A stretch of 64,000 bases of DNA from Mugil cephalus (taxonomy: Eukaryota; Chordata; Actinopteri; Mugiliformes; Mugilidae). Position 1 is the first letter of the stretch; every line of letters starts with the position of its first letter. Under the pieces are notes generated by a model. That model saw nothing but the letters and a program-made list of their open reading frames with translations. It did not search any database and was not told the origin of the DNA. Location of the stretch: contig NC_061783.1 in assembly GCF_022458985.1 (NCBI RefSeq), forward strand, positions 17,579,913-17,643,912, read 5' to 3'. A program made the translations under genes and the position numbers. Shown here piece after piece: positions 26,601 through 64,000 of this stretch.

Positions 26601-29600
26601 TGTGGTGCAGGCGTATACACGACGAGCACAGCAGCCGCTTTACTGCATAAAGCAATCATGTTCTACTTCTCACTCTGCAACCCACATCTAACCTCGTCCC
26701 TTTTTTACTTTCTCTCTTCAGATCATTAAGGACCGAGTGTTTTCTCACATATCAAGGAACAAGTACATGTGGAACTCCTTGCCGGGAGGTCTGCTCGTCC
26801 TACCGGAGTACTCCACTCACCTTGCACATTTCCCTTTCTACTACCTTGGGCTAGGTAAACACACGCTTCATTTGAACATGCCAATTACGATCTCACATTT
26901 ATCAAAACTAAGATGAACAATCAAATAGTCCTTTTGCTACACTACTGAAATATATCAATAACAACTTCTGGAAAGTGGTGCAGCCTGAGCTGCTTTAACA
27001 AGCAGAGTAGAATTTCTGATACCCTAGTTGGGAATGTTCAAATTCTGTCTGTAAAACTGTATCTGATGATCACACATGCCGTCTTCTCTTCATGTCTTTG
27101 TTTTGGGATCTTTCTCAGGGGTCAGTCCGGGTCAAGAATTCACCGCTGTCATCCATGCCGTCTCTCCGTTGGTTTCACAGTCTCAGCCGATCATGAAGCT
27201 ACTTCAGGTGGTCTCCAAGTCAAAGTACTGCTCACAGGTAAGACGAGCAAAACTGTGAGATAACGGTCAAAAACTGTTTTGTACATTTGCATTTCAAGGT
27301 TCTCTGTACATCTTCACGATAAAATGGTAGTGAAGCAACAATCAGGGCAAGTTCCCAGAAACACACTGTGGAATGGGTCTTCCTGGACTTGACTAAGCAG
27401 AAGGGCTTCGTTCAGGGAGGTTACCATGGATCTAGAGAAGTCGTCTGCAGTGATGGAAGAAAGATCGATGGAGTGCTGCCGAGATCACGGCTAGACAGAA
27501 GACACTCAACGCCTTGTTATGAAGAAAATGGATTCAAAGGACTATTTCAGCAGAAGTGCAAGCATTGTGTCCGTTGGAGCACTGCTCATCTTTTACAAAT
27601 ACTATCCCTGCAGTGAAGCATGGCGGTGGCAGCATCATGCATCATATAAGGGTGCTTCACAGCAGCAGGGACAGGGAGATTTGTCAGAATGAGAAGGAGG
27701 AAGAATTCGGTCGAATACATATGGGTCCTTTGCAGATTTAAGGTAGCTGTACAACAAACCAAAGAATTAAGGTTAGGTGGTGTATCGGTTCATTCCAAAC
27801 ACTGGTATTCCTTTTCGTTACGATAATTTTTAATATACCGGTGTATTTGTTTACACAGAGTTTGGAATGCTGTGCTGCAAGACACTGTTTCAGACCTGAT
27901 CATGTTCAATGTAGCGGTTGTCAACACGCATGGTGAATGTGTCACTGCAAGGCATGGTGAAGATGGAAAGGTCTGAAAATTAGCGGCAAAACGAGAGGAC
28001 ACTGAAGACACGGACGAAGCCAAAAAAGATTGTGTTTGATTATTCTACAATATTTACTCATCATCACAGTAACATAGTCCATCCTTTGTCAGTCTACGGC
28101 ATTAATTCCCCTCTCAACCAGCAGAAAATGTTGTGAACACCTGAGTATGCATGAAAAAAAAAAAATACAGAGACAAACCGCCCAGCCCTACAAAGAATAT
28201 ACTGCCTTAGGCCACAAGTCTCTGTCAGCCCTTTAGTGGCCCAGCCTAAATACTAACATAAACCCCAGAGAACATCAACAGCAAATCTTGTATATGGCAG
28301 TTCAGATAATGGTGAGATTGTAAGACTTGGATCTCAAGTCCAGCAGTCTTTGTGACACTTACCCACAAAGGCTGTTGCAATTGCTGAATAGTAAATATGA
28401 GATTTCAGTTTTGAATTTTTAATGTTTTCAGTTTGTGAATTATTGAACATTGATTGATGAGCAAAAGTTTAAATTAAGTCTACAACGGAAAGCGCACGAG
28501 AAGTGAAGCACGTTATGAATCTGCTGTATTACGAGAAGGGAGCACATCTCTGCCAGCAGCCATTTCCAGTAAATCAACTGCGCCCACATGTGTATTGTGT
28601 TATATGAACTTCATTCCTTCCGCTATCCTAGATCATCATTCTGTGGAACAGCGAGAAGGCGCCACCCAATCGGAGCAAGTGGCCTCCCATGCCCGTCCCC
28701 CTCACTGTGACAGACGGCAGGAGGAAGGTGAGGCCCGACGCCACTCACAACTCTCGCAGAGAAGCTGGCTCTGACGTCTGAGTGTCAGGATGACAGACTG
28801 TCAGCCGCTCCGTCTGTTTATGTAGCCCTCGCTCTTTGTCTGCATAAATCCATCTTTCAGCCTGATGTCTATTTTTCTCTTTCTTTCTTTCTACCCGCGC
28901 GCATCCGACGTGTTCACCGATATGTGTGGGGTTCACTTTCCTAAACGACGCTCAGTCTTTACGTATCGTCCGTCTTCCTTTCAAGCAAAATAAAAAAAAT
29001 CTGCAGTGAGAGCACTCATTCCCACTTAACTTGAATTAGTGTTAACGTGATCATGTCTAATCTCTCAAAGCACACCCCGGACTACAAACAGGACCAGAGT
29101 TAGACTGGATTTAACGACATTGTTTCTCTCACAGACCACCAGTCGGTTTCTACCTCACGTTGCCATAGAGACAGAAGCAGTGCTGAGCCTGGACGAGGAT
29201 ACGGTCCTGCTGACCAGTGAGGTGTGTGTACATGCATTTGTAATATACACAAAGCAACAGTGCACAAGCGTAAGAAACAGTTGTTATTACCGCTAATAAT
29301 TATACAGTATCTTGAGTTTTCCACGTCTCTACTTGCAGGTCAACTTTGCCTTCTTGGTGTGGCGGAGCTTCCCTGAGCGGATTGTAGGCTACCCTCCCAG
29401 GAGCCATTTCTGGGATCCCCTAAAGCGTGCCTGGGGCTACACCTCTAAGTGGACCAACGACTACTCTATCGTCCTGACTGGAGCTGCCTTTTACCACAGG
29501 TGGATAAAAACACATGGAAAAAAAATTAAAAATAAAGATGTGAAACTTCATTAAGAGATATATGAGATACTTGTAGTGGAAGTCTGTATCCAGGACAAAG

Positions 29601-31061
29601 AGAGATTTGAAAACAACAATATTGTGCTGATAGTTTTCATTTAATACATTAGAAACTAATAAGAGACAACCTGGTGAGGGGACATTCTGAAAGAAAAAGG
29701 CATTGAGAACAATTGTGTGGGTGAGCCAGAGGAAAGAAAGAACGCGGGCGAATTAGTCTGGGATTATTTTGAGCACTTTGATTAATAAAAAAGGCCTAAA
29801 GTCGGTTTTTGCGCAATGGTCGTGACTTCTTCCTCAATATGCATGTAATTACTCCGCAGACAACACACTCCGAAAGCCGCTCAAGCCTCGTGACATTTTC
29901 AGACAATGCCGTCATTTTTCGTCAGCGGTTTGAATGAAAATTTAAATCCTTACAGAAAATAGACGCATGAGCATTCACCTCAAATGCCCTCTTTTCACTT
30001 CCCGAACAATGAAATAAGAATGAGTAGTGAAGTCTATAAAAGATGCATTGTTCAGCCTGGGAACAGACGAGTGTAGTCTGTCACTATTGATATCTTTACT
30101 TTATACTAATAAAGCAATCTTTTTCTTTTATATAAATAAATGTGGTTGAGCCTAAATAGCGGAAGTCTGACTCAGTCTAACTCACACACTGAATTGAAAG
30201 CACGGCACTGCGATCGCCAGTCTTGAAGGAGTAGGGGACATATGCATGCAGCAGTGGGGTCTAGCCTGACGTATACAATCTTAAATCCCACTGGTGGTGA
30301 AATGGTTAACTTGTCCCAGATACATATCATTGACATACATGGACAGATTCCTCTGTATGACCATCACCATCCACTTCACGGTTTCTCGGCCTCCTGTTGT
30401 GATCAGTTACATAAATATCTCTTTTTGGGTTGAGTTTTTAGACGCCAGTGCAGGTATGATGCTAAAATTAAATAACAGTGATACAGAAGATCACGTAGAG
30501 CACACCAAGGTGTTCTTTCTTTTCTAGTCATGTCTCCTCTTCTTGACACTAAGATGCCCCAGATGTTCCTTCACCTGCCTGCTTTAATCAAGAATCCGCT
30601 TATCTGCACCACAGGTACTACCACTACCTGTTCTCCCACTACCTGCCCCAGTCTCTGAGGGCTCTGGTGGACCGCACGTCCAACTGCGAGGACATCCTGA
30701 TGAACTTCCTGGTCTCTGCCGTGACTCACCTGCCGCCGATCAAAGTGGCTCAAAGGAAGCAGTACAAGGAGCTGCCCGGTCCACAGGTAGGTCGCCGCTC
30801 GCGTTCAGCCGCGCGGGACTCAAATGTCGGGATGGGTCTGGATGGCGAATGACGAGTTCTTGCTTTACTCCCCAGGGCACCAAGAGCGTCCCCTGGGCCA
30901 ACCCGGAGCACTTCAATCAGAGGCAGGAGTGTGTCAACACTTTCGCCAACTGGTTTGGCTACATGCCTCTAGTCCACTCCCAGTTTCGCCTGGACCCCGT
31001 GCTCTTCAAAGATCAAGTGTCCGTCCTCCGAAAGAAGTACAAAGACCTGGAGAGGGCATAA
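17640..31061 (+). CDS. ext1c: EXT1-family exostosin glycosyltransferase, exons 2-11 (5' exon outside window)
   Basis: Golgi type II membrane glycosyltransferase that polymerises the GlcA-GlcNAc backbone of heparan sulfate. Exons: 17640-17733, 21090-21197, 23567-23686, 26722-26854, 27119-27237, 28632-28727, 29135-29221, 29339-29499, 30615-30786, 30876-31061. All have AG/GT borders and compatible phases; the first three lengths (94, 108, 120) equal those of human EXT1 as I remember them. About 424 residues are encoded: the end of the GT47 domain ([34 protein letters not shown]) and the whole GT64 domain with a DXD-type [33 protein letters not shown] and the C-terminus [18 protein letters not shown]. 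The transmembrane anchor is off-window. It is more diverged than ext1a/ext1b would be and shares residues with EXTL1 (VPLTV, FLVW, FPFYYL, AAFYHRYYH), so the symbol is tentative. The family call is secure. Confidence 0.93.
21913..21943. repeat. Interstitial telomeric repeat, GGGTTA orientation
   Basis: GGGTAA followed by four GGGTTA units, inside an exostosin intron. Confidence 0.9.
22256..22345 (-). repeat. 3' tail of a fish LINE-type element
   Basis: On the minus strand it reads TTTCCCTGAGGGAGTCG..GATCAATAAAGTTGAGTCTAAGTC. This is the characteristic untranslated end of teleost non-LTR retrotransposons (a 'dry' TTCCCTxxGGGATCAATAAAG motif). No coding part remains. Confidence 0.6.
24780..25201 (-). 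mobile_element. TIR element copy with a transposase relic
   Basis: The right end, GTGGTCATAATGTTACGGC, is a family terminus at about 25176-25195. On the minus strand a short frame around 24840-24990 reads [18 protein letters not shown]. This is a damaged form of the WPPNSPDLNPIEYLWD motif holding the second catalytic acidic residue region of Tc1/mariner transposases. It ties the whole TIR family in this window to that superfamily. The left terminus is missing. Confidence 0.75.
27540..27745 (+). pseudogene. Relic of a Tc1-type transposase
   Basis: The plus strand around 27612-27690 reads VKHGGGSIM.. and ..[10 protein letters not shown], resembling the conserved HGGGSxMxWGCF block of Tc1-like transposases. 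Frameshifts and stops occur on both sides. It lies in the exostosin intron between 27237 and 28632. Confidence 0.5.
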
Positions 31062-35124: not shown

Positions 35125-36203
35125 CTCAGCATGATGAGCAAGAACAAGCTGGAGAAAGTCAGTGATTCACTGGAAAACACAGACACACACAATTAGAGAC
35201 GCGGATCAGGTGGAGACGGGAGGGTGAGCAAGACGGATGCTGACAAGCACGCCAAGCAGATACGCCAGAAAGGATGACAGGGCAAATTTAAAGTGACAGG
35301 GAACACAGGAACCCTTTAAGCCAGAAAAAAAAAAAACACACAAAAAAACCCCCCATCACCCATTCCGATAAGATATACACACACTTGACAAGAGACAGCG
35401 AAGGACGGACTGCAGTGCTCTTAGAGAAGTTTCAGGGTTTCTGCAGGTTTGAAAGTAAGACTTAAGACTTTGTTAAGACCATTAACAAAGTCTCAAGTCT
35501 TCAATTTAACACCTACACTGTACGAAAAATGAGGAAAATCAGAGACCCACAATTACTTTCAAAATAACAAAATGAACTATCACTCAACAATCAACTCAGG
35601 ACATCCCCGAGGGTGGGCTCCACTAATGAGTAACAAAAACATAATAGGCCAGGGATCATACTGCAAATTAAGTGGCAAATGGATGTAAAGATTTAAGACT
35701 TGACTAAATGTAATTTAAGAACTACAGTGCAAAAAATTGCTTGTATGTAAGATTTGATAAGGCCTTCAATTGGGATTATCAAATTTTAGACTCCACAGAA
35801 ACCCTGAGTTATCTCAAAAAAAAGAAGATATGTCATAGTGGTGATAAAAAATTCTCTGCTGCCCTTCCCTTTAAATATATCAATAGACAGAACTAGTGTA
35901 GATTATTGATTTGATTACTAAAAAGGCTGGTGTAGAGACAAAATGACTAACAATATGTCCCATTACCTGCGTGGCTCGTGTAATCTGGAAGATCTCCATG
36001 GTGCGTGTGACTATATCCTGTACCGTCTCCTGTCCGATCCTGCAGAGGAACACTGGAGAGATCTCTCTCAGGGCTCCCTGGGGGGGCATGGGCTGTTGAC
36101 CTGGAGCTCCTGCACCACCGGGGGGCAGGTGAGGTGGCTGTTGCTGCTGCTGCTGCTGTGGCATCCCTGCCATCCCCGGCTTCTGGGGTAAAGAAGCTGC
36201 CAT
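33437..36203 (-). CDS. med30: Mediator complex subunit 30 (complete coding sequence)
   Basis: A metazoan subunit of the Mediator coactivator that bridges transcription factors and RNA polymerase II in the nucleus. Coding exons in order: 36203-35967, 34856-34698, 34521-34432, 33532-33437. All have consensus borders and are in phase 0, giving 193 residues against 178 in human. The N-terminus is Pro/Gln-rich with a run of seven Gln. The conserved core follows: CRIGQETVQDIVTRTMEIFQ, LPNGVTQ, MYQDRFSKLQEHLRQL, FRKLRLLYERC, LVPYVGEEL, QKNQEMKVLMDQMRNLLWD and a C-terminal MLTLRK. The latter half is predicted to be helical or coiled coil. The ATG at 36203 lies two bases inside its exon, after the acceptor TTTGTAG. 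A non-coding first exon ends at 37511. The gene is convergent with the exostosin gene, as in human 8q24 (MED30-EXT1). A retroelement occupies its first intron. Confidence 0.96.
35085..35123. repeat. (AT)n microsatellite in med30 intron
   Basis: About 19 uninterrupted AT units. Confidence 0.95.
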
Positions 36204-36208
36204 ATCTA

Positions 36209-37005
36209 CAAATCTGTGGCAAACATAAAGATGGTGGTTTGGTTCTCTGGAATGTGGACAAGAAGACCAAGGAGCTGGTCGCTGACTTCAGGAGGAAGAG
36301 GACATCAGTGGAGACCATCACCATCTAGGGCCTGGAGGTGGACTGCTACAAGTGCCTGGGAGTCTGCATGAACAACAGGCTGGACTTACGGGACAACAGC
36401 GATGCTGTTTACAGGAAGGGCCTGAGCAGACTCAGCTCAGGTCTTTTAATGTGTGTATTGAGGTACTAGAGTCATTCTACCAGTCTGCTGTTTTGAGTAT
36501 CCTCTACTTTGCTGCCACTGGACAAACTGCTCTCCACTGCAGACAAACATTAGAGGGACAGAGGAGCTCATTTTCCAGCGGAGTGATTCAGTTCTGCTTC
36601 CATAGTGAACGCTACAGGACTTCTCTTATACCTTACTCCATCCAGCTGCATAACAGCTTATGTTTTTTGTAAACGTTTCACTCTTAACTGCACATCTCAT
36701 GTCTCATGTTCTCCAATCCCTTGTCCATCATATAGCCTATTTCTGTTATTATGTTATTTATTAGTTTAGTTTTTTTTTTTGTACCGTATTTTATGTTTCA
36801 GGTTGACTTTTAACATCTGGCCAGGGACAGCAGATGAAAACTAGCCTCTTGGCTAATTCTGGCTCATTTATGATTTATTATACCTACAATTCATCGTTTA
36901 TTAATGTGCACTCTCCCTGACAAATAAATCAATAAAATAAATAAAACAACTAAGCTACTATGACCAAACAATTTCCCCTGTGGATCATTAAAGTCTGTCT
37001 AAGTC
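36209..37005 (+). mobile_element. LINE (non-LTR retrotransposon) 3' fragment in med30 intron 1
   Basis: The plus strand, opposite to med30, reads TKELVADFRRKRTSVETITI, a stop, then YKCLGVCMNNRLDLRDNSDA and YRKGLSRL. After a frame change it reads ESFYQSAVLSILYFAA. These are the hallmark C-terminal blocks of fish L2/Rex1-type reverse transcriptase ORFs (TKELxxDFR, YKYLGVxxxxKLDW, FYQSVVxSVLxY). A CCCTGTGGATCATTAAAGTC tail at about 36976-36995 marks the 3' end. The copy is 5'-truncated and broken by stops and frameshifts, so it is inactive. Its 5' edge abuts the splice acceptor of the first med30 coding exon. Confidence 0.8.
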
Positions 37006-42857: not shown

Positions 42858-42864
42858 TATAAAA
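42858..42864 (+). promoter_or_regulatory. TATA box of mini-mucin gene A
   Basis: TATAAAA in the context GGCAGGTATAAAAGGAG, 62 bases before the ATG at 42926. It predicts a start near 42888. Confidence 0.75.
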
Positions 42865-42925: not shown

Positions 42926-44923
42926 ATGAAGATAGCAGGGATGATCATCCTCCCTGTCTGTTTGACCTTTATGCTTCTGGGCAGCACTAAGGTAAGGGTC
43001 ACTTTGAATTCACATTGTGAGACCAGGGACAAGAGTTTTAATTCCAAAGGCTGTAATGGACCACCGAAGGCCCAACTGTTGGACAGGTCTACTCTGAGGG
43101 TTTTGAACGAATGCACCTGTCATTTGTTTTTCTAGCTTTAGTGCGGATACATTCAAATTAAGTACAGGTAAATGAACATTTAAATTGGTCTCAAGCTAGG
43201 CAAATGGAGTTAAACAAGAAAAAACAAAATGTATTTCTCACAGCACATTTATATGCATTTATACCGTTTTGCATTTTTTACGTATCACATTATGATAATT
43301 ATATTTGTGTCTGCTTCTGTTTTAAACTTGAGAATGAAAGCTCACTGTTTTAATCTTTTGTTTCTTTTGCGTTTAATAAGTGGTAAAAACGATAAAAACA
43401 TTGGTTACTTCTCAAAATTTGTCTTTACTAAACCTTTTCAGGGGAAAAAAAAATAACTGATCATTATGAAAGACCAATAAATGTTTTTCTTCATGTGAAT
43501 GAAAAAGTAAACTCAATTATCTTAGAACTACTTTACTTTATTTCTGTGCCAGAGGATCTCAGGGAGCATTTAGACTTCCAGGTAAACCACACATAATCTA
43601 TCAAACAAGAATGAATCAGATCTGGACTGGTGGGGAAACTAAATACAACAAAGAATCTTTTTTTTTTTCTTCTCCAATTAGGGACCAATTATATAACATG
43701 AAAAGTGCATGGAAGTCATGAGCTGCCGGTCTGCAGACCACAGCGATATGCAAAGTCCAGCTAATGACTTCACGCACTCATGCACACAGCCGGTGCTTGA
43801 CCTTTGCATGACTGTACTTCTGACGCATTTGTCACTGACACACTTTAGTCCCTGAAGGTATCATTTATGGCCGAACGCGATGACACAGGCAAGAAGCAGA
43901 TCATGTAAAATTTGTGTTTTGAATTTAGTGCCACAAACAATACCCTTATCAGGATGTTCCAATGCCACAAAATCTTGCTTACTTCCGCATAACCCTCTAG
44001 ACTGCTCTAGTTTTTATTTGTCATGGTTTAAATACGGCTGACATTTGCGTTGCTTTATATTTTCACTGACAGACTTAAACCATCTGAGAGGTTTCCTATT
44101 TTAAAATGATTAGAGAAAAATAGTATGCAACATTTGTCTGCTGTTTCGTTAAAATGGAACTTGTGAGCTTGTGATCACCGTGGAAGGTCGTGCGTATGAG
44201 ACACAGTTGCGTCCAAGTGGTAAAATTAGTCATGAGTCACGAGATCACAAAGGAAATGCAAAGACGTATAAACATATTCTTGCTGTCTTTGCAAAGGAAA
44301 TTCACCCATAGGAGCACGCAGCTGGAAACTTGATTGTCACATGATCTTGTGAATCTTGCGACTGTTTAATGTAGTTTTGAAAAATTCAAAGCTCACTAAT
44401 ATTCTGTCTTATTTATTTCAGTATCTCTCATTTGTTCTGAACATTCAAACCAAATAAATGAGGGACATTCTTGCAGATAAGGCACCCTGTTGTTCAAAGT
44501 TGTCTTTTTCTTTGACAGGCACAAAATACCACAAATGCATCCACCACCGCAAACGACACTGAGACAACTGGTACCGCACTGACTTCGGCGTCCACTGTGT
44601 TCCTGAGCCAAACCACCGCCCCAACAACCTCAGAGAACAACACCAGCGGTGCCGTAACCACCAGTCCACCGAGCGGCTCCACCACGTCACACTCCCCGGC
44701 CGCCACTACGTCATCCCTGAAGACCACAATGTCCCCTGGAACCACTCAGAGCACTCCAACCAATTATACGTCCATCACTCCAACGAATTTCACCAGTGGG
44801 CGCGTTGATAGTAACGCCCCAGGAGCTTCGGCGACGACGCTAAAAGGCCGATCTGCCTCTTTGTTCGGGTGCTACAGCCCGTTTCTGATTCCTGCCCTCT
44901 CCATTCTGATCTCGTGTGCATAA
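42926..44923 (+). CDS. Mini-mucin gene A: secreted Ser/Thr-rich, probably GPI-anchored peptide, CD52-like
   Basis: Two coding exons, 42926-42991 and 44519-44923, phase 0, with GTAAGG donor and TTTGACAG acceptor: 156 residues. Exon 1 is a signal peptide (MKIAGMIILP then VCLTFMLLGST), with cleavage likely just after the exon junction. Exon 2 starts AQNTTNAST and is dominated by Thr, Ser, Ala and Pro, with about seven N-x-S/T sequons (NTT, NAS, NDT, NNT/NTS, NYT, NFT). It ends in a hydrophobic stretch (SLFGCYSPFLIP then ALSILISCA) with no cytoplasmic tail, the pattern of a GPI-attachment signal. It has its own TATA box and AATAAA (45055-45060). It is first of three same-strand copies with identical architecture. 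This is the layout of mammalian CD52. Primary sequence similarity is low, so orthology is inference from structure and synteny. Confidence 0.82.
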
Positions 44924-45054
44924 GGGCCGGGAGAGTGAAACCACGGGACACTGCAGTGTAACAATTGGCGTTTATGAAGTGCTTTATTGGAACTGAGCTC
45001 TTTTTCCACGAATCCTAAAGTTGTGTGTAACCTTCACATGTTAAAGACATGATA

Positions 45055-45060
45055 AATAAA
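45055..45060 (+). terminator. Polyadenylation signal of gene A
   Basis: AATAAA 132 bases after the stop codon. Confidence 0.7.
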
Positions 45061-45695
45061 ACGTAAAACATTTGGTTGTATTCTTAAATCTTAAAACGTG
45101 ACGCTGACATTAATTATACCAGCTCAGTCCGACTCTACTGTAGTGCAACAGCTGATGGAAATGGCAGACTTCCAGCCACCGAAACGATTTGCATTTGCAT
45201 TTGCATTTTGATATTAAAAAAAGATTCCCTGTGTCATTCAAACGACGTCACATTCAAATACAGGCTATTTGTTATGCACCGCCTTATGTGTTTTGCCTCT
45301 GTCTTCGCTCCCTATAAGCACTCATAACCATATTAAGATTATATATGGAGATATATATATGGAGATTTATATATATGTATATAGACAGCCTGGGTTGAAA
45401 TCAGGCAAATCCTCTTGGGAAAATATAGCTTTTAGGGTGTCATACTATTCTCTTTGAGGGATTTAAAACCAATTAATTCAACATAAAACAATAACGGTGA
45501 AAATAATCTTTTGAAACTGACTGATTCTTTCTGATCTACATTTCTGCAGAATAACACTATCATTTAAGGTAACTGAAAATAAGCAGCTGGAGGCTCAGCA
45601 GAGACGGGTTATCTCCCGATCTCCCTCCGTTTCAACTGGCCCGGTGAGACGTTTTGCATTTGTGGTCCATTGCTAGGGTGGAGACTGAGGCAGGT

Positions 45696-45772
45696 GCTTC
45701 CTGGATGGAAACAAAAAAAAAAAAAAAAGAAAAAGAGGGTATCAGGTGAATAATCTGAATGCCTTATAAAAA
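45696..45772 (+). promoter_or_regulatory. Promoter of mini-mucin gene B (ETS-like site and TATA box)
   Basis: TATAAAAA at 45765-45772, 158 bases before the ATG, with GCTTCCTGG at 45696-45704 about 61 bases upstream of the TATA. Gene C has ACTTCCTGG at nearly the same distance from its TATA box. Confidence 0.6.
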
Positions 45773-45930
45773 GGTCAGCTCCTGAAGAAACCATTTTGTT
45801 CCGCTAACACTGTCAAGGAGGGGCGCACAAGCATCTAAGCAGCAACGATCTGCTACACCAAAAAAAGGAAAACAACAGATGAAAGAAATATATATTCAGC
45901 TGTTTGTCTTCAAGCAGAAATAATCTCAGC

Positions 45931-46672
45931 ATGAAGTACTTTGTCCTGGGACTGTTGCTACTGGCTCTGCTGGGATGTGTCTACGCACAGGTAAGAAAGA
46001 CTATGAAGTGGGCAGAGAGGTAAATGTACATGAAGTCGGAAAAAAAAATAAAAGTTAAAAGAATAATAATACAGTTTAAATCACTTTAATCCTAAAGCTA
46101 TACTCTCAGTTTCACAGCTGTGATTAGATGGAAATTAAATTCAAGACAAGAAGGTTATTTGCTGTGGACATTTTTTAATATCCCAGCCTTGTATCCATCC
46201 TTTAGTCATTTCCCAAACAACCACCACACTCACTTTGTAGAAGCTATTCTGTTATACGAATCAGATAAATGATGACAGCGATGCAGATGCAGAATCAGAC
46301 CCAAAAAAAAGCCATGTTATGTCATAAATCTCTCTTTCTGTCTTTTTCCAGACCAGTCCGGCACTAAAAACGGAGAACAACAACAACAGCAACAACACTT
46401 CCAAGCCCAACAACAATAACAATGACAATAACACCACCTCAACCACCGGCACCAGCTCCAGCACCAACTCCACCTCCGGCTCCACCACCGGCTCCAGTAC
46501 CAACTCCAGCACAACCACCACCGACCACAACAGCTCCACCGGAACCAGCAGCCAGACTTCCACCGGCACCACAGGGACGGGCACTGGGAGTACAATGAAC
46601 GGACAAATCCGCCTCTTCGCCTCCATCAATCTGCTGTTTGGAACTTTCGTTCTTCAGGCCCTTTGCCAGTGA
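45931..46672 (+). CDS. Mini-mucin gene B: Asn/Ser/Thr-rich, probably GPI-anchored peptide, CD52-like
   Basis: Exons 45931-45990 and 46352-46672 (CAG|GTAAGA donor, TTTTTCCAG acceptor), phase 0, 126 residues. Exon 1 encodes a textbook signal peptide, MKYFVLGLLL then LALLGCVYAQ, ending exactly at the junction like genes A and C. Exon 2 begins TSPALKTENNNN and contains two poly-Asn runs, then Ser/Thr/Gly repeats, with eight or so N-glycosylation sequons. It closes with a hydrophobic tail (LFASINLLFGTFVLQALCQ) and no cytoplasmic extension, consistent with GPI addition near TMNG. The intron is only 361 bases. The extreme low complexity would make this gene easy to miss in homology-based annotation. 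Long Val/Leu and Trp/Cys/Ser-rich frames on the opposite strand are shadows. Confidence 0.82.
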
Positions 46673-46995
46673 GTGTCAGACATGGAGTTCCACGTTACAA
46701 CACCGTTTACTGCAAACCTGAGCTCATTTTTTTTATTTATTTATTTATTTTTTTTGTAGATGTTTGCTAGAGATAAATGCACTATGAGTTCTGCATGCTG
46801 CACAAATGGCTGACTTAGTGATGGGCGAAAGATCCGGAATTAAACTACAACTTGTGCGATATGTGAACCGGATCTAGTTGCTATATGAAGGGAAAGATGG
46901 ATTATTTTAAATCATAGTGTGTCCATTTGCATTTTAAAAAGTTACTGCTACAAGATCACTGATTGTATATACTGTAGACTTATTTATTCTCTTGC

Positions 46996-47032
<37 letters not shown>

Positions 47033-47036
47033 TATA
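46996..47036. repeat. (TA)n microsatellite
   Basis: Two TATA-rich runs separated by a few bases; a similar (AT)n run lies at 47648-47668. Confidence 0.9.
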
Positions 47037-47216
47037 AAACATGTTACATTGCAGTAGTTGTGTTGAGTTTTAAAGTTTCATTTATAGTTTAATTCCTGTA
47101 ATAACTTTAACTGTATAATAACTAATATAACTAATAACTGTAATAATTTGCAAATATGCAGAACAAGCAGTAGAATGAGCGTTTGTGTTGACGTGTCCAA
47201 AACATATGAAACATGA

Positions 47217-47222
47217 AATAAA
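47217..47222 (+). terminator. Candidate polyadenylation signal of gene B
   Basis: AATAAA about 545 bases after the stop codon; no closer canonical signal was seen. Confidence 0.4.
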
Positions 47223-47956
47223 GAGTGAAATATGGTACTAATAAGAGGTGTCTGACAGATGTTTGTTGCCATAACTACAGATATAATAGTCATTTAAAGT
47301 AGTGCACTGTGTATCCCTTAAAATATTCCCTATAGTAAAGGGGGAAAAGAAGGAGTTTATTTAAGAGACTCACTAAGCGCTTCTGTTGTGCTGCAGCGTG
47401 ATCCAGATTTGACATCAATATGCCGAGCCGAGGCCCAAATGTTGGACAACAGCTATTCTTTAACTTGACACTCTTTATTGTGGAACGATTTCACTTTGTC
47501 AAGTAAACAGTTATGGAGGCAGTGATGGTGTAATTAAATCACGTAAGCATGAGTCATGCTTTTGTGCCGCTGTTACCAGTGGATGCTCCACCTAGATGAT
47601 CTTCTGTGTCATAAGCTTTATAAAAAATAGAAAAAAAGCCAGTATATAACATATATATATATATATATTAACACTCTGTGACTGATCACAAGAAATATAA
47701 AGTAATATAAACCCAAGCATTAACAGTCCAGTAATGAAAGAGTGAAACGACGATGGAAGTCACTACGTGATAATAACTGGACATCGTTGCCCTCTGCAGC
47801 CTCTGAACGTCCACTGCAACGACGGCCCTGTTGTTCTCATGCGGGCCTGTCCAGTACCTTAATAGCTTTATCACAAAGAAGAACAAGTAAAATAGATTCA
47901 CATTTATTGAACTATCCTTTCACTAAACACTTTTTGAACCAAATGAAGTTCAGTCA

Positions 47957-48080
47957 TTCATTAGTTTTCTGTAACCGCTTGTCCTGTGGAGGGCTGGAGC
48001 CTATCCCAGCTGTCATTGGACGAGAGGCGGGACAGGCCACCAGTCCATCGCAGGGCCACACAGAGAGACAAACAACTATC
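47957..48080. repeat. Common teleost dispersed repeat
   Basis: It contains GTAACCGCTTGTCCTGTGGA, GGGCTGGAGCCTATCCCAGC, a TGTCATTGGACGAGAGGCGG block and CCAGTCCATCGCAGGGCCAC. I recognise this as a very widespread fish interspersed repeat. It is non-coding and partial. Confidence 0.75.
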
Positions 48081-48994
48081 TACATGCAAATTTAGAACAA
48101 CCCAAAGCTTCTTTATTTCAACACTTCACTGCATCTGGTGTTTTGTTCTGGTTCTCTAGTTATAGAAGCAACTAAAACAAAAAATAAAAAATAAAAAATA
48201 AAAATAAAAATTGAATAATTTTCTCTATTACCCTATTACCCTCCAAGCCTGAAAAGCCATAATACAGTGAAAAATGTACCATTTGCAAAGTTTAGAGTTT
48301 AGTTTACTCAAAGGTAGTAAAAACAAAAAACGAGTATAAAGAAATAAAGAAAACAGGTGTAAAATGAAAAAAATACTTAAAATTAAAATGAAATAAAAAA
48401 TAAATAAAATAAACATGATATCAGATAAACCGAGTAAAATCTTAAGAGTGACCTTCATCTAGTTCCAATCATGTCATTTGAGGAAATAATATTGTAAACC
48501 ATTTGTTTATTAAGGTTGTCAATTATCCACCAAGGCAGGTTTACTAGTATTGTCTTTATGACAGGCTACATACAGTGCTTCTATGAGAGCATATATGTTA
48601 TTCACAGTAAAAATTAACAGTGGCAGCATCTGTGACAGGTAAATATTGTCTATCGTTGTATTTCAAACAGGTCATTAATGGCAGAAGTATGGTAAAAATT
48701 AACAGTGCGATCAGAAGAGAATATGTCTATCTTGCGTCATTTCAAAAAAAAAAGAAAGAAAAACAGTTTTAACAAGCGATGAATGTTGTAAACATAACAG
48801 AATTATATTCTTGAAGTGATTATAACATGTCTAGTCAGGATTGTCTGCTTTCATCAATTCCATATGTATTTTTTATTACCTTTAAATACTTTGAGAGTGT
48901 CATTTTGAATTATTGGCGTAAATAATTAATTTGCGCAGATTCTAGGACAGTGACCTCTTTCTTCACAACACATGCAATCAGTAAATCCCAAACA

Positions 48995-49064
48995 ACTTCC
49001 TGGTTCCAGGGCCAAGTCACACCTCACTTCAACCCCGCCTGAAATGTGATATTTTTGTATAAAA
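48995..49064 (+). promoter_or_regulatory. Promoter of mini-mucin gene C (ETS-like site and TATA box)
   Basis: TATAAAA at 49058-49064 in the context TTTGTATAAAAGCAG, 135 bases before the ATG. ACTTCCTGG lies at 48995-49003. Confidence 0.65.
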
Positions 49065-49198
49065 GCAGAAGGTTTCCTGCCCCAGAAGCACAAAACACCC
49101 AAGCCGCAGTAGGAGACTTTTCACAGCACCATCGCACTTTTCTTCCCGTGAATTTGGACAATTCCAGTGACATCTCCGCCACCTCTTGCATCTCCATC

Positions 49199-50113
49199 AT
49201 GATGATTTTGGCTCTGGCATTCATTGCTGTGGTTCAGCTGGCAGCTGCACAGGTACCTTTAAAATCTAAAAATCGAAAAATGATCACACCAGAGATTCTG
49301 TGCGATTTTGGCTTACTGTACAGCGTCATTATTTGTCACTACAACTCCCATATGCATATTTAATGATAACTCATGTATACAGCAAATAATGACTGTCTTC
49401 TGAATGAGTGAACAAAATGCCTTTTGACCTTTTCTTTAAATATCAGTGCATTGCAGTGATGGGAAAATTTTAGAGCTATTTTACAGTTTTGATGGATTAA
49501 AAAAAAATCTTTAATCAATATGACAAACGTGCAACTAGACTGGAGTTACAAGACGAGACCGCCTTTTATTATTCAGTATGAGTCACTAATTGTATGTATT
49601 ATTTATTTATTTTGCTCTATTCCCAATTACAACCAGAATGAAAACGCCACTATCTCAACCCCAGCGAACACTACGACAGCACTGCCAATGACCTCTACAG
49701 CCACAGCAAACGCCACTGAAGCTACAACCACTACGGTAGTACCAAACACCACTGCAGCTGCAACTACAACCACTACGGTAGTATCAAACACCACTGCAGC
49801 TGCAACTACAACCACTACGGTAGTATCAAACACCACTGCAGCTGAAACTACAACCACAACGGTAGTATCGAACACCACTGGAACTACAACCACTCCAGAA
49901 GTATTAAACACCACTGCAACTGCGACCAATGTGACAACACCACCAGGCACCACTACGCTAGCCACCACAGTCGCCACCTCAACCGACACCAGTGCCTCCA
50001 CAGTCACCGGAACAACTGTCTCAACCACCACTGTAATGGGTGGAGGCGCAGAGGTCAAAGCTTCGGTGTTACTCTCCGTTGTGCCCCTCCTTCTCTGCAC
50101 AATCCGCTTGTGA
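49199..50113 (+). CDS. Mini-mucin gene C: Thr-rich tandem-repeat, probably GPI-anchored peptide, CD52-like
   Basis: Exons 49199-49252 and 49637-50113 (CAG|GTACCT donor, ACAACCAG acceptor), phase 0, 176 residues. Exon 1 is the signal peptide MMILALAFIAVVQLAAAQ, ending with the exon as in gene B. Exon 2 begins NENATIST and carries about four tandem 14-residue units of the type TTTVVSNTTAAATT, encoded by 42-base repeats at about 49727-49894, each with one NTT sequon. About nine sequons are present in total. The hydrophobic C-terminus, VLLSVVPLLLCTIRL after GGGAEVKAS, fits a GPI signal. TATA box at 49058 and AATAAA at 50649. The plus-strand frame extending upstream from 49520 is intron read-through. 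The 166-codon minus-strand frame over exon 2 is an antisense shadow of the repeats. Confidence 0.84.
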
Positions 50114-50648
50114 GGGTCAAAACCCACCTAAAGGACTGAAAGACTCTTGCACTCCCAAGATATCAGTGTTCTTGAGTGTAAATTAGGCTTAAACTTAGTC
50201 ACTGGTTCTCACTGTCTCATGCTTTGTCAATTCTTTTCCGAAGAATCCGAGTGTTGGTGGATGAAGGCGAGCATTATGGTAGCAATAACATGTTGGTATT
50301 TAGTGGTCTTGCAAAAATCACCAACTTAGTTTCACTCTATATTTTTGTTTTTTACCGTCACTCTCCCTCTGCCTGACTGCACTGCAATAGAAGGAATGAA
50401 TGGCTGAGTTAGACACTTTACTATGCAGAACCACGTAAAACGCTGCGCACACACAAACTTGCTTAACACATTTGTATTTTTTTAACAAAGCACACAGAAA
50501 CGAGCACTGTAATTGATCTGAACTATAGAAAATTAAGAAAGTGATATGATTAAAATGTAATCAGTAATCAAAAGTCGGAAAAATGCATTATTTGAAATGT
50601 GATTGTTTTGCTGTATGTGAATGTTGATGGATCCAAAGATGTGTCAGA

Positions 50649-57730: not shown

Positions 57731-57989
57731 TGAGAAATGGTAGCGAGACTAACCAACAAAACTATAGAGCCACTGCCACTTACCATGATGTGTCACAGCC
57801 TTAAAATACATTTTGTTGCTGCCTCTGTCCACAGAAGTTAATTGCTTTGCTTCAGTACCAACACCTTATATCTACTGCAGGGAATACATTTACTACGGAT
57901 GAGTCATACTACATACCTACCTACCTACCTACTTACCTAACTGTCCCTTTAATGAGGGGGGTGGAACTCCAACAACCTAAAAACCTGAC

Positions 57990-59240
57990 ACCATCGGGAC
58001 ACACCCTCTCATTTAATGATCTTTCTTTATTTTCATGACTATTTACACTGTAGATTTTCACGGAAGACATCAAAACTATGAATGAACAAATATTTGTTTT
58101 ATATTTTAGATTCTTCAAAACGTCTTTGATCACTGCTTTGTACATTCTCTCAATGAGCTTCATGAGGTAGTTCCCTGAAATGGTTTTCCAACAGTCTTGA
58201 ATGAGTTCCCAGAGATGCTGAGCACTTGTTGACCCGTTTGCCTTCACTCTGAGGTCCATCTCATTCTGAAACCACCTTGAGTGGGTTAAGGTCAGGTGAC
58301 TTTGGAGGCCAGGGCATCTGGCACAGCACTCCGTCACTCTCCTTACGAAGCCTGAAGGTGTGTTTGGGGCCATTCTCCTGTTGAAGACTAAATAATGGTC
58401 CAACTAAACGCAAAGAAGATGGGATGACATGGAGCTCCAGGATGCTGTGGTAGCCATTCTGGCTCAGGGCACCTTCAGTTTTGAATAAATCGCCAACAGT
58501 GTCTCGAGCAAAGCAACCCCACACCACCACACCTGCTCCTCCTCCATGCTTCATGGTGGAAACCATGCATGTGCAGACCATCTAACATCCATTCCGTCTG
58601 TTTCTTGGCCCAAACAAATCTCTTCTGCCTGTTGTTTGTCTTTAGTAGTGGTTTCTTAGCAGCTATTCAACCAAAAAGGCCTGATTCTGAAACGCTGATG
58701 TAGAGATGTGTCTGCTGCTAGAACTGTGTAGCGTTTATATGGGCTCTAATCTGAGGTGCTGTCAACTTCGATTAACTGCGATTTCTGAGGCTGTTGACTC
58801 GGATGAACTTATCCTCAGCAGCGGAGGTTTGCAATTTTCCAGACTGACAGACCTTTAGTCCTTAGTGATGATTGGCTGTCATTTCTGTTTACTTAGCTGG
58901 CTGGTTCTTGCCATAATATGAATTATATCTGCTGTCAAATAGGACAGTCAAGCTTCATACCCACCTGACTTCTGCACAACACAACTGACAGTTCTAACCT
59001 CATATCGATGGCAAGATATTCAACAAATGAACTCTGACAAGGCATACCTGTGAAGTGAAAACCATTTCAGGTGAGTACATCACGAAGCTCATTGAGTGGT
59101 AACAACAAAGGGTGACTATTTTGAGGAATCTAAAATATAAAACATATTTGTGATTAAATTTTTTTTTCTTCTACGTAATTCCATATATCTTGCTTCATAT
59201 ATTTGATGTCTTCAGTATGTATCTAAAATGTGTCATAGAC
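57990..59240 (-). pseudogene. Nearly full-length, inactivated Tc1-like transposon
   Basis: Left (58055-58110) and right (59110-59220) ends are inverted copies sharing AGACATCAAA/TTTGATGTCTTC and the AATCTAAAATATAAAACA / TTTTATATTTTAGATTC blocks. Between them the minus strand encodes Tc1 transposase pieces: MKHGGGAGVVVWGCFARDTV at about 58551-58490, QNGYHSILELHVIPS, QQENGPKHTF, WPPKSPDLNPL, and, after a frame change, SAQHLWELIQDCWKTISG. The normal DNxPKHT motif has Glu in place of the catalytic Asp, and frameshifts and stops separate the pieces, so the element cannot encode active transposase. Confidence 0.85.
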
Positions 59241-60152: not shown

Positions 60153-62726
60153 TTACAGCAGCTCTATCTCCCACTGTTGGCTCGGCCTCTCGTCGTTCTC
60201 TGACATCACCACCACATGGTCCTTGTCATACGTTTTGCCACCTGATGAGAAAAAAAGAGTAATAATTAAAAACACGGTGCGGTGATAAAAGTTATCTCTC
60301 TGCAAGGAGAGATAAATTCTCTTTTTTTTATTGGTTGAATAACTAAATTTTTACACAGATCAGGCATAACATTATGACCACCTTCCTGTGGTGTCTGGCA
60401 ACAGGATGTTGTTAGTGGGGGCCATTAAGTCCTATGAAGGATACTAGCATAGATACTTGATCAGGTTGGGATCTAGTGAATTTTTTCATGTTTTTTAATT
60501 TTTTTAAAAAAATTTTTTTTAAGTTGCTCCTTAAGTGTATTTGTGTGTGTCAGGCTGCATCGTGTTGGGGACGTCTGCTGCTATCAACAATCATTGCTAT
60601 GGGGTGGGGGGTGTCTGGTCTGGTTTGGTCTGGTCTAGGTAGGTGCTACATGTCTAAGTAACATCCGCACAAATACCACGTCCAAAAGTTTCCCAGTAGA
60701 ACACTGTGTTGTCACAAGATGGTTAATGTGACTTACTTCTCCTGTCAGTGGTCATAATGTTATGCCCGATCGGTGTATAGTTTAGTGAATCTTTTTTTTA
60801 TTTTTTTTTTATTTAGGGTCTCTGTAAACTCTCCATTGGAATCTCTGACTAAACTGGTTTCAGTCAAGTTAAAGAAATACTTGTCTTGTAAAAGTAACTA
60901 GCTAGCATAAATTACATAAAAATCTGAGATTCTACAATTTAAGTTAGACTATTTAAGAGAGAAACACATATTTTCAAAAAAAAAAATGTAATGCCATCAA
61001 ATATAAAATACAGTTTCACACATTTCATTTTTAGCATCTTTAATGGAAGCATTCAGTCAAATAAACGTTTACATGCCAAAGGCCCTAATCTCATACCTTT
61101 AACATCCAGGACCATGCCAGGGAAAGTAAGGTTAGTGATGCGGCCTCTCATGTGGGCTGTCCAGGTTTGGACTGGCTGTCTGTTCTCTGTCCACAAAACC
61201 ACCTTCGATCCCGGCTCTACGTTACCCATCACCTGAAGGCTCATGGTCGGGGACATCTGTGGCAGATACACGCACACGCCAGCTCAGTAAAGACTACGTT
61301 CATGCTGGTTAGGATAAATATTTGCAGCAGAGTTTAGGATTTAGTTTGACATAGATGTTACCTTGCTTTTTATCAGTCCTTCCTGGTAGAACCAGATGTC
61401 ACTCATCGGCTCCGCCTCTGGCGTCACCACCACTCGTCCAGATTTCATTTCCTCCACTCCCCCCTGAACGGACATGAAGTGGCCGCTGTCTTTGTTCTTG
61501 ACACGGAAGAATTGCCGCTTCTGTAGAAGGTAAAACACCACACGTGACAAAAGACAGTGAATCACATGTCACTACGGGAATGACGTGAGATTGGTTTTGC
61601 ATTTTAAATCATGGCTGTTTTACATTATTTCCACACTGACAATCCTCTTTTTACTTTACTTTGACTCTTATGTAGTGTGCAAATACATATTTTCTGCTGC
61701 TAGACATACATATCCAACTTCTATAAACTCAGGTTTCTAAAACTTTACTTGTCAAAAGATTTTTGCCTTTTTAAATGTGTATTTAATGTCTGTGTTGTTG
61801 AGAGGACAAATTGCTAACTAACCTGTCTGACTGGGTACATGGAGCCAATGGTGTGCATTGAGCTAAACTTTGGCCAGTTGGTGATTTCAATGGGTTCCAA
61901 GAGGATCTGGCGCCCCCTGTAGTTGCTGTGCTCACATATCACCCAGCTACAAAATGAAGAACAAGAGAGGCGAGTTTAAAGGATGCAAAACATGCAACTT
62001 TGTTGGAATTCTACAGCAACTTTAGATCATGCAAATAAAAAGAACCATGAGGGGACACAAACACTCACCAGCCGCTGTTGACTCTGACGGAGAGGATGTG
62101 GTTGTTGAAGCCCTCCTCGACCAAACTGAGGATCTCGGTGTCGGTGGTGATCTCCCTGCCCTCCAGACACTCGAGGCCAAACAGGGAGATGGAGGGAACC
62201 GAGAACATCTGCACAGAGGGATAACGGAGGCTCAAAGAAAGAAAGAAAGAAAAAAACTGAATACAAAGGTCTTTCACAGCCGAGTGCTAACTCACCGTCG
62301 GCACAACCTTGAGGGAGCGGATGGTGGAGCCGGGGGGGCAGCCCATGCTGGTTAAAGTTGGGTAGTCCCCATCTGATAGGACATACATGTTCCCAGAGTA
62401 CTGTTTGTCCTCGTAAAGCACCCAGCTGAAACACAGAGGAACACCGTTAATAATAAAAATGTCTCCTATCACATCATACATCATTTATTTAATGTATAAT
62501 AAGCCAGTCTTTGTCGACCCATTTTTTCTCCACATACTGTTTACATGCTCCTTTGTGTACTGGCTTTTTTTATGTCATTATTATTCTAGATACTTCATTT
62601 CCCACTTCCTCACCTTCCACCTGAAACTCGGCACGACTTGCACAGCAGTTTCTCTGGGACTGCTTCCTCGTTGCGGTCAAAGACGTGACACTGGCCCTGG
62701 AAGTCTGGCTCAGAGTAGAGTATTAC
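60153..62726 (-). CDS. crybg2: Beta/gamma-crystallin domain protein with C-terminal ricin-type lectin domain (CRYBG2-like), 3' exons only
   Basis: Seven exons: 62726-62614, 62425-62296, 62208-62069, 61946-61823, 61520-61362, 61256-61097, 60241-60153. They join in frame to the last 304 residues; the 5' part lies beyond the window. Four Greek-key motifs are seen: VILYSEPDFQGQCHVF, SWVLYEDKQYSGNMYVL, ISLFGLECLEGREITT and CWVICEHSNYRGRQILL, making two beta/gamma-crystallin domains, with CRVSGG and MGCPPGSTIRSL linkers. A beta-trefoil lectin domain (QFFRVKNKDSGHFMSV, DIWFYQEGLIKS, GNVEPGSKVVLW, GMVLDVKGG) follows with QxW-type QTW and QQW and ends EIELL. This is the AIM1/CRYBG architecture. EEGFNNHILSVRV, EITNWPKFS, and PTMSLQVMG fit CRYBG2 best from memory, though CRYBG1 or CRYBG3 is not excluded. 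The role is poorly known. Confidence 0.88.
60353..60776. mobile_element. Complete non-autonomous TIR element in the last crybg2 intron
   Basis: Best-preserved copy of the family, about 424 bases. The left end ACACAGATCAGGCATAACAT continues into TATGACCACC. The right end is the near-perfect reverse complement (GTGGTCATAATGTTATGCCC then GATCGGTGT), and TA flanks both sides. It has no coding capacity. Confidence 0.88.
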
Positions 62727-64000
62727 CTGGCACAGAGGGGTAAAACAACAAATCAGATAAACACAAAAAGATAAACACAATAAATGAATTACTTATCTTA
62801 ATTTTGTCAATTTGAGGTCAGTGTTAGGAGGCTAGTGTTTTGACTAATGCCTTCTGTTTATGATGTGCTATGTTTTACACACTTTCAACCTTTGGGCCGA
62901 ACCTAACAGTTGACACCACTAAATACTCTTTTTATGTGTATGTGTGATAAAGTTCAGATGAAGCACATGATCCAGCTCATGCAAAAACAAAGTCAAGCTA
63001 ACGTCAGCGCTGAGTGACGTGACCGACACGAGGCAGTGGTAAGACATGAATTATTGCAGCTATCAAAGCGAACACGTGCGCGCCTACTGCCACTTTCCCC
63101 CAGATATGTAAAGTCACGTTTTATCTGAACTCAGGTTAGTAGGTCAGACACATCTGATTACAAATGATAGTTATGATAATTATGAGTTTCAGACTCATAA
63201 TTGTAGATGATTTGTTTTTCTTGTTTTTAATTATAGTCTAATGTTTTCAGAGTCAGCTCGGTTTGGTGTGGTAGCTGGACTCAGCTCTTACCACATACAA
63301 TATGGACCATTTTCCATACAAAGAAAAGAACTCCTCTGTAGATAACTGGACACGCCATACCGATTCCCTAGTCCACCTGCACTCTATAGAAAGATCTGCA
63401 GTACTATACATACATTTGCATTGTAAATTTTATTGATATTTCTTTCTTTATCGTTTTTCAGTGCTGCTGTGACGGAGCAGTTTTCTCTTTGGTATCAATT
63501 TCAGTTTAAGTCACCACTATTAATAATTACATTCATGTGTCCGCTGTGTAAATCTTCTTGTGCGCTGCTGCTTTAGGTTTTGTCTTTACGCTGCTGTAGC
63601 TTTCAGTTTTATTTCCGCTAAACCAGAGAGCTGAACTTTATTCTGTTTATCGTTATGGATTTATTTTTTTACTGGACAATGACAATAAAAACTTCAATTC
63701 TCTTCCTTCTGTCAACATGTAAAGCCCAAAACAAACTATTTGATTGGTCTGGCAGGTCTCTGCTGGGACATGATCAGTCGCCAATGATCGACTTCAGACC
63801 AACTCTCCCCTTCAAATATTTTATGGGCAGAGGGAGTTTGGGCTGGCTTCCAGCTTAGAAAATACCGTGCGTTCCATTAAAACCAACTAGTAATCACAGG
63901 GGTTTAAAAAAAAATAAATAAGAATTGCTTATTTTTTTGAATTTGGCAGATTTAGGCACAGTCAACATGGCGACATTGAGCTTCCATATGTGCCGTCATG
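62727..64000 (-). other. Intron (partial) of the crybg2-like gene
   Basis: Upstream of the exon starting at 62726 no further crystallin exon is visible up to the window end, so the intron is longer than 1.27 kb. No repeat was identified. Confidence 0.55.

Follow-up and report, generated by a model that had tools for sequence, protein, structure and literature searches.

Within a 64,000-nucleotide stretch of the Mugil cephalus genome (C14:17579913-17643912; hereafter the window), we found three same-strand two-exon genes of one plan, termed A, B, and C, clustered in 7.2 kb. In each, a short first exon encoding a signal peptide is followed by a single second exon encoding a low-complexity body, dense in N-glycosylation sequons, and a hydrophobic C-terminus. 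The cluster neighbors a gene of the CRYBG family, and a CD24-like gene of the same plan lies beside crybg1 on another chromosome. We propose, with a probability of roughly 0.43, that A, B, and C are functional glycosylphosphatidylinositol (GPI)-anchored mini-mucins derived from a CRYBG-linked ancestor shared with CD24 and CD52. Descent from such an ancestor is plausible, about even with an independent origin. Genome searches covered 634.8 Mb in 24 contigs.

Spliced and translated, the frames of all three genes, located on the + strand, contain no stops, confirming the initial annotation of three same-strand genes that each carry a TATA box, a phase-0 signal exon of 18 to 22 codons, and one intron. 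Gene A (42926-42991 and 44519-44923; intron 1527 nt) would encode 156 amino acids with 7 sequons, gene B (45931-45990 and 46352-46672; intron 361 nt) 126 amino acids with 8, and gene C (49199-49252 and 49637-50113; intron 384 nt) 176 amino acids with 9, these counts including overlapping sequons. On the same strand, TATAAA occurs 68 bp 5' of the ATG in A (42858-42863), 166 bp in B (45765-45770), and 141 bp in C (49058-49063). The signal exons comprise 22, 20, and 18 codons, respectively, and end in phase 0 at the donors AAG/GTAAGG and CAG/GTAAGA, each agreeing with the consensus at 8/9 positions, and CAG/GTACCT, agreeing at 7/9. Polyadenylation-type hexamers follow A at 45055 (AATAAA) and C at 50549 (ATTAAA) and 50649 (AATAAA), while the first such hexamers after B are located at 46839 (ATTAAA) and 47217 (AATAAA). 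In B, an upstream frame of 14 codons lies in the predicted 5' leader (45879) and may reduce translation. Using Rfam at its gathering thresholds, zero matches were found in the window.

The second exons likewise bore out their description as sequon-dense, serine- and threonine-rich, and ending in a hydrophobic stretch without a tail. Their bodies are rich in serine and threonine in A, where the hydrophobic C-terminus runs into the stop codon, in serine, threonine, and asparagine in B, and in threonine, arranged in repeats of ~14 residues, in C; all three are expected to be disordered. C-terminal hydrophobicity was lowest in B (1.68, compared with 1.88 in A and 2.43 in C), and this moderately hydrophobic tail is the weak spot of the observation. 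In all three genes, the hydrophobic segment forms the very end of the protein with no residues beyond it, and a transmembrane mucin was rejected given that a cytoplasmic tail is absent throughout. By the usual small-residue rule, the signal peptides are probably cleaved after alanine (TKA/QNTT, VYA/QTSP, and AAA/QNEN), placing glutamine first in each mature protein. Open frames also run antisense to B (46261-46653, 130 amino acids) and C (49627-50127, 166 amino acids), most likely as a side effect of low-complexity coding sequence.

We scanned for this plan elsewhere. The scanner required a signal exon, a donor in phase 0 (the sole phase considered), an acceptor, and a serine/threonine-rich body containing one sequon or more and followed by a hydrophobic end. 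A stricter first version flagged A and C but missed B, and its criteria were then relaxed to let B through. In this looser form it flagged exon 2 of each of A, B, and C in the window and none besides, and no match was found in 30 kb beyond the window. The first 55 other loci (201,456 b) gave 0 matches. Among the later ones, 1 match occurred in L052-L063 (120 kb), 0 in L064, and 0 in L065, making a total outside the window of 1 match in 65 loci (299,456 b), the CD24-like gene on C17. In simulated DNA, 2 weak matches were found across 20 first-order Markov windows (1.28 Mb). For every second exon the scanner reports its top-scoring partner alone, and A was the only gene joined to its own first exon; the second exon of B was joined to exon 1 of A, and that of C, through an acceptor at 49577, to exon 1 of B. 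The exon pairs given above for B and C were therefore assigned by inspection of the sequence. The contrast between the A-B-C cluster and chance is strong, yet it provides no clean probability, since the 65 loci are a non-random sample, some overlap, and the loosening was made with B in view.

The single match outside the window serves as a positive control. Located on the - strand of C17 (exon 1, C17:2871046-2870984; exon 2, C17:2870635-2870495), it encodes a predicted 67-amino-acid protein, with TATAAA 92 bp 5' of the ATG and AATAAA 65 bp 3' of the stop. It lies past CRYBG1-RTN4IP1-QRSL1 and was the sole match in 50 kb around this CRYBG1 copy, while 40 kb around the second CRYBG1 copy, on C21, contained no mini-mucin. 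Protein similarity was assessed for 15 pairs in all against region-wise shuffled copies, 1000 for each test, giving two counts of shuffles that scored as well. Aligned with human CD24, the C17 protein scored 71 against 38.7 +/- 6.6 for shuffles, with 1 and 0 per 1000 as good. Consistent with its location, one study (PMC6581687) places ATG5, C6orf203, QRSL1, PREP, RTN4IP1, and AMD1 very close to human CD24. The C17 gene is therefore, judged by sequence and position, very probably fish CD24. Because it shares the plan of A, B, and C, the plan marks real GPI mini-mucin genes. The Pfam CD24 model (PF14984) misses this candidate and is thus insensitive in this genome, such that silence of Pfam weighs little.

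The CRYBG neighbor of A-C lies tail-to-tail with them. Its 3' part occupies 61095-64000 on the - strand, where ricin-type lectin (PF00652) and beta/gamma-crystallin (PF00030) exons were recognized, and the gene extends for 24 kb or more outside the window, its N-terminal exons being read by eye. Further CRYBG copies are located at C17:2839-2843 kb, followed by RTN4IP1 (matching RTN4IP1 in PDB, expect value (E) 1e-18) and QRSL1 (Amidase domain, E 1.9e-21; the gene was named by eye), and at C21:6751-6761 kb, beside a second RTN4IP1-like gene (C21:6741666-6745791, E 1.5e-13). The order CRYBG1-RTN4IP1-QRSL1 is that of human 6q21. As both adjoin RTN4IP1, the C17 and C21 genes are two CRYBG1 copies, expected from the fish genome duplication, and hence the window gene is not CRYBG1; it is CRYBG2 or CRYBG3. 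In two exon comparisons with pieces of the human proteins, a lead only, the exons from C17 and from C21 came nearest to CRYBG1 each time. A 370-amino-acid query from the window gene matched several spread exons on each of C14, C17, and C21, with 37 to 56% agreement exon by exon between the window gene and the C17 and C21 copies. No clear fourth CRYBG gene emerged from the genome search with this query: one exon matched C18 at 48%, which does not place CRYBG3, as ordinary crystallins elsewhere reach similar values. A PDB search with the lectin exons was set aside, as it returned matches to repeat proteins that carried no information. No further gene was named in the adjoining 38 kb on this side. 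Some 38 kb from the window, a lysine/serine-rich frame (EEGNRLEMAKKTLSRKSLKSLFSKSDASLDQ...; L065 7620-7998, - strand) may belong to a gene of its own or represent the exon in which the CRYBG coding sequence starts.

In exon structure and in having a CRYBG neighbor, A-C resemble mammalian CD52, partly as initially proposed. Human CD52 has two exons, and residues 22 to 25 of its signal peptide are already encoded in exon 2 (PMC9684181). Likewise, in A-C the single intron falls late in the signal peptide and the mature peptide is encoded in exon 2. Around signal cleavage sites, phase 1 introns are overabundant (PMC1626468), so a phase-0 intron is not what one would expect by default, bearing in mind that the scanner itself asked for phase 0 only and that the comparison with human CD52 covers intron position, not phase. 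Gene A begins its predicted mature protein with QNTT, and human CD52, the mature start of which is GQNDT, has NDT; thus a sequon stands near the mature N-terminus in both. The adjacency of CD52 and CRYBG2 holds in a cattle gene list, where LIN28A, ZNF683, CRYBG2, and CD52 occur together and the last two are neighbors (PMC12587522), and an association window in goats contains both (PMC11813914). A-C also have a CRYBG gene as neighbor, in tail-to-tail orientation. The human CRYBG2-CD52 pair is tail-to-tail as well. With CD24, A-C share the plan found on C17 and the predicted character of a GPI-anchored glycan carrier with a serine/threonine-rich body.

Were A-C to function like these proteins, their signal peptides and hydrophobic tails would be removed and a GPI anchor added. 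By analogy with CD52 and CD24, the mature peptides would carry many N- and O-glycans, forming a nearly pure glycan brush on the outer membrane. Such a brush, on leukocytes or epithelia, could be anti-adhesive and act as a ligand for sialic-acid lectins; CD52 itself is expressed on lymphocytes and in the male tract. A single CRYBG-linked mini-mucin ancestor would then have given rise to A-C, to CD24 beside CRYBG1, and to mammalian CD52 beside CRYBG2.

Several results weigh against the part of this proposal that concerns descent. The Pfam CD52 model (PF15116) did not match A, B, or C at E up to 10, and across the whole genome it gave 15 sub-threshold matches, none above the cut-off; PF14984 likewise had no match in A, B, or C and 5 sub-threshold matches in the whole genome. 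Reading and scanning near 13 of these 20 sub-threshold matches revealed none built like A-C. At C1:46092757, a frame of 28 residues that ends in a STASLF-like stretch was rejected, having no serine/threonine-rich body. In the comparison with human CD52, shuffles scored as well in 344 and 431 per 1000 for A, 16 and 57 for B, and 26 and 135 for C; the similarity of B, one among 15 pairs, is suggestive at most. Mature CD52 is a peptide of 12 residues with one sequon. In contrast to this very short protein with its single N-glycan, A-C have precursors of 126 to 176 amino acids with 7 to 9 sequons and bodies of ~85 to 138 residues, ~7 to 12 times longer, and they are three genes rather than one. 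No convincing sequence similarity connects them to CD24 either, which follows CRYBG1-RTN4IP1-QRSL1 on C17, whereas A-C stand beside another CRYBG gene.

The neighborhood adds to these objections. The other flank of A-C is MED30-EXT1, not UBXN11-SH3BGRL3 as at CD52, and an SH3BGR-type gene is located on C14 at 4.43 Mb, 13 Mb from A-C. A weak cold-shock-domain match also occurs on C14, at 5.80 Mb and far from A-C; both may be 1p36.11 content. Furthermore, the pieces of the human proteins, a lead only, pull the identity of the CRYBG gene in different directions. One window exon was nearer CRYBG1 (22/42, score 146) than CRYBG2 (17/42, score 114). A second scored 137 with CRYBG2 and 114 with CRYBG1 and was closest to the CRYBG3 piece (30/41, score 173, compared with 22/41 for CRYBG2 and 21/41 for CRYBG1). 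On this exon evidence, the window gene may be CRYBG3, and the case for CD52 is the weaker for it, since CD52 adjoins CRYBG2 alone among these genes. The proposed CRYBG2-like gene thus held up as a CRYBG gene other than CRYBG1, with mixed signals between CRYBG2 and CRYBG3. Similarly, a CD52 relationship found backing in gene plan and CRYBG neighbor and lost ground to the missing Pfam match, the long bodies, and the MED30-EXT1 flank. Hence, A-C are not filed as CD52 and are called mini-mucins beside a CRYBG gene; an expanded fish CD52-like family is put forward as a hypothesis.

The supposition that simple duplication of an ancestor explains the shared architecture fared worse. Mutual alignments of the A, B, and C proteins were no better than those of region-shuffled copies, which also counts against common descent: shuffles matched the real score in 225 and 156 per 1000 for A-B, 353 and 334 for A-C, and 324 and 234 for B-C. 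DNA comparison of the three gene units returned a single 26-nt match, between A and C. Recent tandem duplication was rejected on both comparisons, and while A, B, and C are possible simple duplicates, nothing beyond the common plan points to it. When each of the three proteins and the CD24-like one was searched against the whole genome, no clear paralog was found, the best matches elsewhere having E of 0.007 for exon 2 of A, 0.084 for exon 2 of B, 0.84 for exon 2 of C, and 0.17 for the CD24-like protein; these searches match exon by exon and are blunted by low-complexity sequence.

The same gaps in sequence similarity would be expected if A-C were real GPI mini-mucins working as outlined above and, at the same time, a novelty of ray-finned fish, born in or moved into the MED30-CRYBG interval, with a plan convergent on that of CD52 and CD24. 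This independent origin is a serious contender that falls a little short of even odds. It accommodates the lack of a sequence link to the CD52 and CD24 models, proteins that cannot be aligned with each other beyond composition, the MED30-EXT1 flank, and a CRYBG neighbor that may be CRYBG3. Moreover, so simple a plan, in which a signal exon is joined to a single low-complexity exon that ends hydrophobically, is easily evolved. Against it stand the rarity of the plan, the one match in 65 loci (299,456 b) falling at the CD24 position, and the recurrence of a CRYBG gene next to mini-mucins in both cases. A more direct tie to CD24, with A-C as extra genes copied from the CD24 locus, is improbable. 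Gene A scored 55 against the C17 CD24-like protein (39.4 +/- 6.0 for shuffles; 18 and 13 per 1000 as good), and under another division into regions 1 in 300 shuffles was as good. However, this is one of 15 pairs, B and C show nothing, PF14984 has no match, and the place of CD24 lies on a different chromosome, where it is already occupied.

There is also a slim chance that at least one of A, B, and C is no gene and consists of chance frames in microsatellite-like DNA coding for serine and threonine. The repetitiveness of B and C, the long antisense frames at 46261-46653 and 49627-50127, and the failure of the scanner to join B and C to their own first exons would fit such an origin. Chance would, however, have to supply three complete genes in 7.2 kb, each with its TATA box, a signal exon, both splice sites, and a hydrophobic end, whereas 1.28 Mb of simulated DNA contained only 2 weak matches.

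Upstream of the cluster, EXT1 exons extend over 17647-30849 on the + strand (PF03016 and PF09258; exostosin-1 in PDB, E 1.1e-25), with more before the window start and, by eye, to ~31.06 kb. The first coding exon of MED30 follows on the - strand (35883-36287, given as open reading frame bounds; PF11315, E 8.2e-11). Further EXT1-like genes are located on the - strand at C14:17018599-17103405, ~0.5 Mb from the window EXT1, and on the - strand at C11:16454056-16477535, near RAD21. The 10 kb read beside the C11 gene, part of the interval only, contained RAD21 and no mini-mucin. A translated stretch of the form LEPIPAV...HTERQTT or NTERQTT is present at both ~47960-48090 in the window and C11:16440029-16440340, which suggests an interspersed repeat. 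By eye, fragments resembling broken Tc1-type transposase occur on the - strand at 24777-25028 and 57936-58581, the second in the interval that separates gene C from the CRYBG gene.

A bolder extension of common descent, which we consider unlikely, at little better than one chance in four, is that CD24 and CD52 are sisters produced by the early vertebrate genome duplications from an ancestral block in which a GPI mini-mucin stood next to a CRYBG gene. LIN28B-PRDM1-CRYBG1-CD24 (6q21) and LIN28A-ZNF683-CRYBG2-CD52 (1p36.11) would then be copies of one block. LIN28B and PRDM1 are located on 6q21, and PRDM1 and ZNF683 are related. This fish would have retained one CD24 next to crybg1 and three mini-mucins next to its other CRYBG gene, the latter cluster representing the CD52 locus or, should CRYBG3 prove to be its neighbor, a third branch of the family that mammals lost. 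Rapid change in the low-complexity bodies would have erased the sequence link; human CD24 and CD52 scored a weak 50 against 39.5 +/- 6.4 for shuffles, with 71 and 40 per 1000 as good. Both human CD52 and, if properly glycosylated, CD24 are described as Siglec-10 ligands (PMC7379889, PMC11299574). A sister origin, if true, would explain this common receptor.

Both CD52 and CD24 act as 'don't eat me' signals and serve as drug targets, and we know of no explanation for their origin. Among the matches listed in the open-access literature, with most subscription journals outside it, no paper on a fish CD52 gene and none treating CD24 and CD52 as duplicates was found. Now that mini-mucins are seen clustered next to one CRYBG gene and a probable CD24 next to another, this origin becomes testable by synteny and gene plan, which can be used where sequence similarity fails.

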